A stretch of DNA of 30,681 nucleotides. Origin: a virus. Numbering within the stretch: position 1 is the stretch's first letter; every line of letters starts with the position of its first letter. The notes beneath the pieces were generated by a model that saw only the letters and a program-made list of their open reading frames with translations, was not told the origin of the DNA and ran no database searches. The DNA lies in the IMG/VR virus record IMGVR_UViG_3300049846_001171, positions 1-30,681 of that record, one strand, 5' to 3'. The position numbers and the translations under genes are program-made. This document shows, piece after piece, positions 1-3,150 of the stretch.

Positions 1-803
1 ACACCGCTCTGCGCGTCAAGCATTTCAGCAGCTTGTTCATCGAATAGAATATTTGCTGGCCAACGGCCTTTCGCTCCCAACTGCGAAGCCCCTACGTTCA
101 CTGATTTTATCTCTTCTTTAGATCCGAATGTTGATCCCAAGGTTGTCTTGTTTGAAATGCTTCTATGGTTTGGGTCATTTTCATTTACAGGTATTCTACA
201 CCCATCGATATTCAAAGCACCAGTGCCATACTTTAAAACATTCTCAGCGACGGTGAGATTTTTCTCTAATGGCTTTCGCGCGAGACAGATAGGTTCATTT
301 GCTGGCTTTAAAGCAGTGCCCCAGCCTTGCCATTGTTTTGCGGATTCGGTCGATGGTGCTGTGATTGGATTGTATGCCGCTACTTTATAGCCGATACTTC
401 CAGCGGTAGATTCTGCACCCAAGTGACAATTTGGTCTCGCGTTTGGATTCTCGCCAATCACCTCGCGCTCTGCCCCTGCTTCTTTATCAATGCGCTTTGA
501 AACATCTGTCGACTTCGGGAATCCTGATCCATAAATCCATTGAATCTGATCTCTAATTTCAAAGCCTGCATCTTCAATGTTAACAACAAGCCTGTGATAA
601 GTCCTTGTGCCGCCAAATGCGAGTAAGTGACCGCCTGGTTTTAAAACCCTTAAGCACTCACGCCAAATTTCAATCGATGGGACATCATAGTCCCAGTGCT
701 TGTTCATGAAGGCTAAGCCATAAGGCGGATCAGTCACGATTGAATCGACTGAGTTTTCTTTTAGTTGCTTTAGAGTTTGTGAGCATTCACCAAGTAAAAT
801 CAA
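1..803 (-). CDS. DNA methyltransferase, 3' end outside window
   Basis: Site-specific DNA methyltransferase of the N4-cytosine/N6-adenine type, modifying phage or host DNA in the cytoplasm. About 267 residues are visible. The N-terminus carries the catalytic motif DPPYGL at residues 25-30, preceded by a VDSIVT strand. It is followed by LRVLKPGGHLLAFGG and later by KGRWPANILF, a stretch typical of phage DNA methylases. With DPPY near the N-terminus, the SAM-binding FxGxG motif should come at the C-terminus, which is outside the window (beta-class order). The start is TTG at 803, three bases after a GGAGGG ribosome site; no ATG or GTG fits the frame. It is separated from the upstream gene by a terminator, so it may have its own transcription. 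No restriction partner is visible. The target base and site cannot be read from sequence. Confidence 0.88.
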   Translation of the reverse strand, partial: MILLGECSQTLKQLKENSVDSIVTDPPYGLAFMNKHWDYDVPSIEIWRECLRVLKPGGHLLAFGGTRTYHRLVVNIEDAGFEIRDQIQWIYGSGFPKSTDVSKRIDKEAGAEREVIGENPNARPNCHLGAESTAGSIGYKVAAYNPITAPSTESAKQWQGWGTALKPANEPICLARKPLEKNLTVAENVLKYGTGALNIDGCRIPVNENDPNHRSISNKTTLGSTFGSKEEIKSVNVGASQLGAKGRWPANILFDEQAAEMLDAQSG

Positions 804-832
804 TATCCCTCCACTGGAGCCCCACAGGGGTT

Positions 833-864
833 TGAAAAAACAAAAGGCCTAGTTTCCTAAGCCT
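833..864 (-). terminator. Rho-independent terminator after the Lys/Ala-rich peptide gene
   Basis: On the minus strand AGGCTTAG and CTAGGCCT pair (one G-T) around a GAAA tetraloop, followed by TTTTGTTTTTTC. It lies just after the 20-residue peptide gene and before the methyltransferase. A second small hairpin (AGGGT/ACCCT, 873-886) sits between the stop codon and this stem. Confidence 0.8.
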
Positions 865-886
865 CTCTCTATAGGGTTAAAACCCT

Positions 887-949
887 TTATTTTGCTTTTG
901 CTTTGGCTTTTTTAGGGCCTTTAGCTTTAGCTTTTTTTGATGCTTTCAT
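887..949 (-). CDS. 20-residue Lys/Ala-rich basic peptide
   Basis: The ATG at 949 is preceded by AAGGAG nine bases upstream and the frame ends in TAA at 887. The product has 20 residues, ten of them lysine and six alanine, with one Gly-Pro in the middle (KGPKKAKAK). It has no acidic or aromatic residue. The composition resembles the tails of histone H1-like and other nucleic-acid-condensing proteins, so binding to DNA or RNA is a reasonable inference, but no family is recognised. It has its own candidate promoter (977-1005) and a clear terminator directly downstream, which argues that it is a real, separately transcribed gene and not chance. It is too short for most gene callers. The alternative is a non-coding RNA that happens to contain a short frame. 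Confidence 0.6.
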   Translation of the reverse strand: MKASKKAKAKGPKKAKAKAK

Positions 950-976
950 AATTCGACACTCCTTGTCTATGGCTCA

Positions 977-1005
977 ATGCTTCACTGGGCTTAAGTCTGT
1001 GTCAA
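977..1005 (-). promoter_or_regulatory. Candidate promoter for the Lys/Ala-rich peptide gene
   Basis: A perfect TTGACA (1005-1000) lies 17 bases from AAGCAT (982-977), a poor -10 match (three of six). The -35 box overlaps the TGA stop of the upstream gene. Predicted transcription would start near 970, about 20 bases before the ATG, leaving room for the AAGGAG site. Confidence 0.4.
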
Positions 1006-1208
1006 GAAAATTTAGCGGTGTCTTGGATCATGATTCGAAATCTCTTCTCACCTATTTCGACCATGAGAATTTCATCACCGAGCATGGTTGTGAAGATGCG
1101 TTCACCGTCATCTGTTTCGAATGCGGATAGGATTGCAGAGAAGGCTTTGACTAGATCTATCGGGTTTGATTTTTCGTTAAGCTCAAACTCTGCTTCGTCG
1201 ATGTCCAT
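1002..1208 (-). CDS. Small acidic phage protein of unknown function
   Basis: The product has 68 residues and is rich in Asp and Glu in its first half (MDIDEAEFELNEK), then has alternating hydrophobic positions (LVKAFSAILSAF) that suggest a helix and a short beta segment (GDEILMVEIGEKRFRIMI). No family is recognised. The ATG lies directly after the stop of the RusA-type gene with no obvious ribosome site, so translation may be coupled to it. It is the last gene of the recombination block before the Lys/Ala-rich peptide unit, whose -35 box overlaps its stop codon. Position and strand support a real gene; function is open. Confidence 0.6.
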   Translation of the reverse strand: MDIDEAEFELNEKSNPIDLVKAFSAILSAFETDDGERIFTTMLGDEILMVEIGEKRFRIMIQDTAKFS

Positions 1209-1211
1209 GAT

Positions 1212-1724
1212 TTATTCTGTGCTTGGAATGAAAGAAAGTCGAACAGAACAATGACCATCGGGATATTGGATTAGACTTTGGTCTCGAGGCATTGAGTGTT
1301 TTGATGCCCAGATAAAGAAAAAGTATTTATCATCAATGCCTATGTTTTCTGAAATGCGGTCTTCTAGCGGTTTGATTCTGTTGGAGGCGTCTTTCCTTTT
1401 CGGTTCGCCGATTTCTTCTGACTTGTTTTTGGGTTTACAGAAGAGGTCTGTCTCTGGAAAATATAATCTTGCTTCGAAGAGAATTTTCCTGTCTTTGGGT
1501 CTCTTGCTTGAGAGTTCTTCTTTAAATATTTCCACTGATCTATTTTGTTTTGCTGACATAGTGACAAAGTAACTTCGTACCTGTCTTTCAAAGAGTCTTG
1601 CAATACTTGTTTTGATAAGGCGACCGCGTACAGAGGTGAGAGTTTTGTTAACAGACGGTGGCATAGGCAGAAAATTGAACTCAAGAACTCTATCAGTAGT
1701 GTTTTCATTAGAAGTGTTTTCCAT
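1212..1724 (-). CDS. RusA-type Holliday junction resolvase
   Basis: Endonuclease that cuts four-way DNA junctions made during phage recombination and replication. With the ATG at 1724 it has 170 residues, somewhat longer than classical RusA (about 120). The N-terminus has the strand-plus-loop LEFNFLPMPPSVNKTL (residues 14-29). The catalytic segment is KDASNRIKPLEDRISENIGIDD (111-132). By eye, D112, K118 and D131/D132 match E. coli RusA D70, K76 and D90/D91, but the residue equivalent to D72 is Ser114. A TTG at 1754 in the same frame would add ten residues; I prefer the ATG because the family begins close to this strand. The gene overlaps the zinc ribbon gene by 17 bases, and Erf lies further upstream, which fits a recombination module. 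Confidence 0.8.
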   Translation of the reverse strand: MENTSNENTTDRVLEFNFLPMPPSVNKTLTSVRGRLIKTSIARLFERQVRSYFVTMSAKQNRSVEIFKEELSSKRPKDRKILFEARLYFPETDLFCKPKNKSEEIGEPKRKDASNRIKPLEDRISENIGIDDKYFFFIWASKHSMPRDQSLIQYPDGHCSVRLSFIPSTE

Positions 1725-2619: not shown

Positions 2620-3150
2620 TTACTTTCCTAGATTGTTCATAAGTGCTGCTTCGGCTGCTGTTTGTGGAGCGTAGTTTGTGACAGGCCTTGCTTGGGTTTG
2701 AGTTGCCGGACGCATGGCTGGTTGAGCCGGTCTTGCTTGCGGTGTTTGAATTTGATTACCGATTGTCTTGCCAGTTGCATGATTGCCATCATCATCGATT
2801 TGAGCAACGCCAACAAGTGATGAGAGTTGGTAGCGCCTAAAGTATGTGATTGCTGATCCAAAACCTTGAGCATCGCGCTTTGAAATGAGGACTTCTAGTT
2901 TGCCGCTTGAGATTGATTGACCAGAGGCATGGGCTAGAATTGTTTCAATGTAGTATTTATCATTCTCAGAGTATGTCTTTTGAATGTATGAAAGACCATT
3001 CTTAGTAAGCGGTCCTCGGCATGAATCCATGACTGATCCGAGGTCAGCGTACTTTGATTTAAAGAATGGATTGTCTGAGTCTTTGAGTGCGCCTGAGATT
3101 TCTGTTTGAGCCTTTGCGAGTGCTGCAAAGAGGTCTTTTGATTCTATCAT
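2620..3150 (-). CDS. erf: Erf-type single-strand annealing protein
   Basis: Recombinase of the ERF superfamily, which anneals complementary single strands during phage recombination and genome circularisation. It has 176 residues, close to the usual size. The core carries the family signature: DNPFFKSKYADLGSVMD near residues 26-42, GPLTKNGLSYIQ (46-57), TILAHASGQ, and QGFGSAITYFRRYQLSSLVGVA with DDDGN near residues 95-122. The C-terminal third is rich in Gln, Pro and Ala and probably disordered, as in other Erf proteins. The ATG has an AAAGGA site nine bases upstream. It is followed by two unknown genes, a zinc ribbon protein and a RusA-type resolvase, together a plausible recombination operon. 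Confidence 0.9.
   Translation of the reverse strand: MIESKDLFAALAKAQTEISGALKDSDNPFFKSKYADLGSVMDSCRGPLTKNGLSYIQKTYSENDKYYIETILAHASGQSISSGKLEVLISKRDAQGFGSAITYFRRYQLSSLVGVAQIDDDGNHATGKTIGNQIQTPQARPAQPAMRPATQTQARPVTNYAPQTAAEAALMNNLGK

Follow-up and report, generated by a model that had tools for sequence, protein, structure and literature searches.

The window examined here is the whole of a 30,681-nucleotide stretch of DNA from an uncultured virus contig (IMG/VR record IMGVR_UViG_3300049846_001171), the majority of whose genes lie on the minus strand. The major head protein is encoded at the right end, followed by other structural genes and then by an early/recombination block. Within this block, a leftward operon runs in the order Erf, 143 aa, 106 aa, 83 aa, RusA-like, 68 aa and mini-ORF (Table 1), and the first gene behind the mini-ORF terminator is that of a DNA methyltransferase. 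Searches for phage relatives of the 68-aa and 143-aa genes returned none. Genome contigs searched with the 68-aa protein and with TerL likewise contained no relatives, and we therefore assign no host.

Table 1. Coordinates of features in the window and in related loci.
Feature	Position or locus	Strand	Details
N6/N4 DNA methyltransferase	1..803	minus	start TTG 803; runs off window end
Tandem hairpins	809..830	minus	CCCC-UGU-GGGG (830-820) and CUCC-AGU-GGAG (819-809)
Intrinsic terminator	835..867	minus	11-pair stem 867-842, GAAA loop, T-run (GTTTTTT)
Small hairpin	873..886	minus	AGGGTTTTAACCCT; directly 3' of mini-ORF stop codon
Mini-ORF	949..887	minus	20 codons, MKASKKAKAKGPKKAKAKAK; 10 Lys, 6 Ala
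Shine-Dalgarno AAGGAG	964-959	minus	9 nt before mini-ORF ATG
TTGACA (-35-like)	1000..1005	minus	overlaps stop codon of 68-aa gene; probably no promoter
68-aa gene	1002..1208	minus	same operon; 93% identical in L002
RusA-like Holliday-junction resolvase gene	1212..1724	minus	170 aa; Pfam score just under gathering cut-off
Erf-like ssDNA annealing protein gene	2620..3150	minus	upstream, same operon as mini-ORF
Mini-ORF of relative	L002 3261-3323		20-codon frame, MAKSKKAKAKGSKKTKAYAK
Lys-rich slot ORF, 31 aa	L232/L248		directly before terminator of Erf operon
Lys-rich slot ORF, 30 aa	L238/L240/L246		directly before terminator of Erf operon
phrog_2423 protein, 49 aa	L229/L230/L241		slot before early-operon terminator
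Tandem hairpin sites	L227 3432, L238 3382, L241 3068, L247 3405
Tandem hairpin sites	L004 3690 and 8442, L252 8988, L253 1188 and 6181
Tandem hairpin sites (more besides)	L255 9020, L274 8673

The mini-ORF carries the signals of a small gene: a Shine-Dalgarno (SD) sequence at proper spacing, a start codon and an open frame, which extends no further since an in-frame TGA lies 27 nt upstream of the ATG. Its peptide is Lys/Ala-rich and free of acidic residues, a composition matching that of H1-like Lys-rich tails. Among 200 dinucleotide shuffles of the window, none yielded an ORF of 15-40 aa with K+A of at least 75% or K of at least 40%, so that an accident of composition is not the explanation. 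The first-pass annotation had described just such a 20-residue frame behind AAGGAG, with ten lysines and six alanines but no strand, and we recovered it on the minus strand. Searches of Pfam, PHROGs, PDB and the phage collection gave no match to the peptide, as its low complexity would lead one to expect. Two further interpretations of the frame were set aside. Firstly, a 75-aa frame on the opposite strand (903-1130, plus) was judged incidental, being the complement of the Lys/Ala frame together with the 68-aa gene. Secondly, -1 or transcriptional slippage at the A7 run of the mini-ORF was rejected, the run being interrupted by AAG in L002.

That annotation had also proposed a free-standing transcription unit with a perfect -35 box. 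The TTGACA (1005-1000) is indeed present, but it shares bases with the stop codon of the 68-aa gene. At a spacing of 16-18 nt downstream of it there is no acceptable -10, the promoter listing is empty there too, and the hexamer is rarer in the window than expected (13 observed vs 30). Given this overlap, the missing -10 and the lack of enrichment, a sigma-70 promoter of its own is unsupported, and the mini-ORF is instead the last ORF of the leftward operon. The strong terminator behind it, which serves the whole operon, bears out its earlier description as a textbook one: the 55-nt segment folds with z = -3.45, and none of 200 shuffles folds equally well. Rfam returned no match for the mini-gene region (E up to 1).

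Conservation of the mini-gene in a distant relative

The same block occurs in only one IMG/VR contig besides the window (L002/L004), and the 20-aa form is carried by two genomes only. L002 keeps the gene order, SD, ATG, length, 20-codon frame, K/A character and terminator, in agreement with the coding mini-gene first proposed; loss of the frame with retention of the hairpin, the pattern which that proposal had set against itself, is not what is found. The sequence TAGACA(T)AGGAG is common to both genomes, with 7 nt between SD and ATG in L002. A hairpin (CGGGGTTTACCCG) stands at the same site directly after the mini-ORF stop, and the terminator is retained with a compensatory C-G to G-C change. 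The spacer between the 68-aa gene and the mini-ORF has decayed and can hardly be aligned.

Across the mini-ORF, 51 of 63 nucleotides are identical, for which the binomial P is at most 1.4e-5 at a neutral identity of up to 0.55. The neighbouring genes are near saturation at synonymous sites (dS 0.81-1.72), and mini-ORF dN (0.09-0.19) falls in the range of these real genes (0.04-0.23). Synonymous sites of the mini-ORF are themselves fairly conserved (dS 0.33-0.42), and its dN/dS is not significantly below 1, the 3-4 synonymous and 4-8 nonsynonymous changes making the ratio too imprecise to decide. When the same 12 substitutions were placed randomly in the mini-ORF, an open frame with at most five amino-acid changes was kept in 0.6% of simulations and a K+A count of at least 14 in 0.1%; with codons 2-3 accounting for five of the 12 changes, a single in-frame event could inflate this test. 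The frame alone survived in 18%, so that openness by itself is little proof. Second codon positions vary least, and the alignment of the two peptides outscored 1000 of 1000 composition shuffles. The amino-acid sequence is thus conserved beyond nucleotide expectation (placement 0.1-0.6%), in a comparison of two genomes only.

Downstream of the mini-gene, L002 carries a convergent 75-aa gene and then TerS-TerL, which places the methyltransferase outside the unit. The link to that enzyme drawn at first pass is accordingly unsupported, the neighbour not being conserved, and a leader peptide controlling the methyltransferase was rejected, no such enzyme gene lying behind the mini-gene in L002.

Since it is kept at the protein level in one distant relative, the mini-ORF is probably a real, tiny gene for a nucleic-acid-binding peptide rather than a product of chance, with binding suggested by composition, as are the DNA compaction and host takeover proposed at first pass. 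The full proposition, in which it is translated, selected, situated at the early operon end and encodes a 20-residue cationic peptide likely to bind nucleic acid, we hold with middling confidence. The mini-gene would form the 3' end of an early recombination operon (Erf ... RusA - 68 aa - mini-gene), and would be transcribed from an upstream promoter and ended by the intrinsic terminator, its expression and timing being presumed. The product would be strongly cationic (+10 by Lys count) and probably unstructured, with two KKAKAK-type blocks, and would most likely bind DNA or RNA electrostatically in the early phase of infection, in the manner of other lysine-rich tails; its ten lysines, zero acidic residues and H1-like KKAKAK blocks are the grounds for this expectation. 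The C-terminal tails of histone H1 and the bacterial H1-like proteins share this KKAKAK/PKKAK-type composition, a compositional resemblance and not homology. In H1 and H1-like proteins such Lys-rich regions belong to larger proteins, as tails or as long repeats. If translated, the mini-gene would rank among the shortest phage protein-coding genes whose sequences give evidence of selection. Like others among the phage proteins of under 100 aa reviewed in PMC11323111, it is a small phage gene of unknown function; the words 'lysine', 'cationic' and 'positively charged' do not occur in the text of that review, and a literature search on Lys-rich phage peptides produced nothing usable.

Two kinds of Lys-rich sequence elsewhere deserve mention. 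A terminase-small-subunit-like protein begins with MAARKKAKAKGGRP in L003 (2940-2971, minus) and L005 (8835-8866, minus); these hits to the strict peptide pattern were rejected as mini-genes, and their KKAKAKG string is apparently convergent with the mini-ORF peptide. A collection by Lys pattern also yielded Lys-rich ORFs of 17-25 aa with plausible SD in unrelated viral contigs; those of L148/L164, L136, L154, L102/L118, L133, L146 and L161 are nearly pure Lys and 20-25 aa long, and several of them immediately precede the next gene or overlap it. Those of L148/L164 (MAKKKKNKKKDKKKKKNKKKR) and L133 (MAKKKKAKAKKKKKTKKKKIKRKR) resemble the mini-ORF in size, charge and SD, but are almost pure Lys and lie in unrelated contexts; convergence is the likely explanation.

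Occupants of the operon-end slot and alternative readings

The wider clade was sampled with TerL of L002, L208 and L209 as queries, giving 80 loci. In those of these distant terminase relatives whose sequence reaches the end of the Erf operon, a Lys-rich ORF often occupies the final place ahead of the terminator. One occupant of this slot is phrog_2423 (~49 aa, function unknown; MPLKKGxSxKTISxNIxxEMxxGKPQKQAVAIALSVAKKAKKAA-KKKK), which shares with the mini-gene the final ORF position ahead of the early-operon terminator and a Lys/Ala-rich character, here in its tail. The AlphaFold model of phrog_2423 consists of two helices (mean pLDDT 74); its PDB profile hits were to TALE or designed repeats on short pieces and were judged spurious. 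In a complete Manatee Spring phage (MW202867), phrog_2423 lies behind the coat gene, and this phage is without tandem hairpins. The 30-31-aa ORFs are also Lys/Ala-rich and last in the Erf operon with a terminator next, but differ from the mini-ORF in being longer, in their KKKK end and in being in frame with an upstream ORF. The slot has no Lys-rich ORF in L252 or L235, and in L252 the ortholog of the 68-aa gene precedes another gene, with no mini-ORF.

Comparison of L241 (974-1120) with L246 (112-204) revealed a nearly identical leader and terminator around a differing interior, L246 being without 57 nt in frame while keeping the KKAKK...KKKK tail. This suggests allelic exchange or in-frame loss of the phrog_2423 core, and hence that Lys-rich small ORFs are swapped or trimmed in the slot. 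In L232 (1206-1445) and L238 (1216-1443), an upstream ORF with an amphipathic FLDSLLSRFL start, where changes look synonymous, runs in frame into the Lys-rich segment for a total of 75-79 aa. As the frame extends upstream, the Lys-rich part may be a tail, and these loci possibly encode one small protein ending in it; no such continuation exists in the window or L002.

The mini-gene could on this basis be a terminal cassette, translated and selected but derived by shortening or replacement from a larger Lys-tailed protein of the phrog_2423 type, and sharing its function in place of generic binding. The occupation of the same slot by phrog_2423 (two predicted helices and a KKAKKAA-KKKK tail) in three loci, by its apparently trimmed counterpart in L246, and the absence of phrog_2423 elsewhere in the window and L004 are consistent with such a relationship. 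We nevertheless consider it rather doubtful. The 20-aa peptide aligns with the Lys-rich slot ORFs and phrog_2423 no better than its own shuffles do; alignment-based homology to the slot ORFs was set aside for this reason, and position and composition are all that they have in common. The peptide has no phrog_2423 HMM match, no QKQAVAIAL motif and no trace of the two-helix core, and the leaders and terminators of the window and L002 are unlike those of the slot relatives, as is the in-frame arrangement of L232/L238. Furthermore, phrog_2423 is patchy, occurring in 5 of the 21 contigs searched whole, and the window-type peptide pattern occurs only in the window and L004. The differing slot occupants of 49, 30-31 and 20 aa offer a means of asking which part of a Lys-rich small protein persists.

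What is conserved may alternatively be RNA, either the operon-end terminator region or a small RNA, with an A-rich stretch that happens to read as Lys/Ala. Conservation of both post-stop hairpins, the compensatory change in the terminator and the low dS of the mini-ORF would all fit. Nevertheless, protein-level conservation above random placement of the same changes, the least-changed second codon positions, the retention of SD and ATG beside a decayed spacer and the lack of an Rfam match make this unlikely in our view. A functionless chance or decaying ORF in the operon 3' tail, as its shortness, low complexity, few relatives and patchiness in the clade might imply, is improbable in the face of a K/A composition never reached in shuffles and of conservation beyond neutral expectation. 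The translated, cationic peptide thus remains our preferred reading.

Tandem hairpins behind the terminator

A few bases behind the T-run begin two tandem hairpins of the form CC-DGU-GG, which adjoin the mini-gene without being part of it, and the second of which (819-809) overlaps the SD of the methyltransferase gene. Such pairs recur in the TerL clade, mostly at a spacing of 21-24 nt (11 nt in the window and L002). We counted 30 distinct pairs with pairing flanks in the clade vs none in control loci amounting to 3.4 Mb, both strands included; this and the other hairpin counts given here include related contigs and are thus partly non-independent. When the pairing filter is dropped, the sense strand carries 27 of 28 distinct pairs, and the first outer position is paired at 51 of 56 sites. 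Stem covariation greatly exceeds that of the shuffled and slid controls, a value biased upward because the sites were mostly selected for pairing. Rfam contains no match for these hairpins.

Pairs precede the methyltransferase or TerS gene or coincide with its start, at the head of the packaging operon, and in most cases lie 18-22 nt into a ~200-aa coiled-coil gene, situated downstream of TerL and scaffold-like by position and sequence. In this gene the motif is translated in two different frames (ASG, APV), and the constraint is thus on the nucleic acid. The tandem hairpins look like a translational operator pair, for which they are candidates. Autoregulation of scaffolding protein synthesis is known from P22; our literature search on such autoregulation found nothing relevant. 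Translational control of head-assembly genes would become directly testable in these phages through a covarying RNA element placed at terminase/methylase and scaffold-like gene starts, and the hairpins are a more novel lead than the mini-gene, and one that would matter more.

As a lambda-N-sized basic peptide from the last gene of the early operon, the Lys/Ala peptide might bind these adjacent hairpins as their trans-acting partner and switch translation of the packaging and scaffold genes (or read-through); we think this highly improbable. Neither phrog_2423 nor the mini-ORF pattern is present in three hairpin-bearing contigs (G007-G009; L252, L253, L255), so that the peptide is at least not the conserved partner. 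Single hairpins with at least three outer pairs are skewed towards the sense strand (55 sense vs 3 antisense; control 9 vs 9), and cluster around gene starts.
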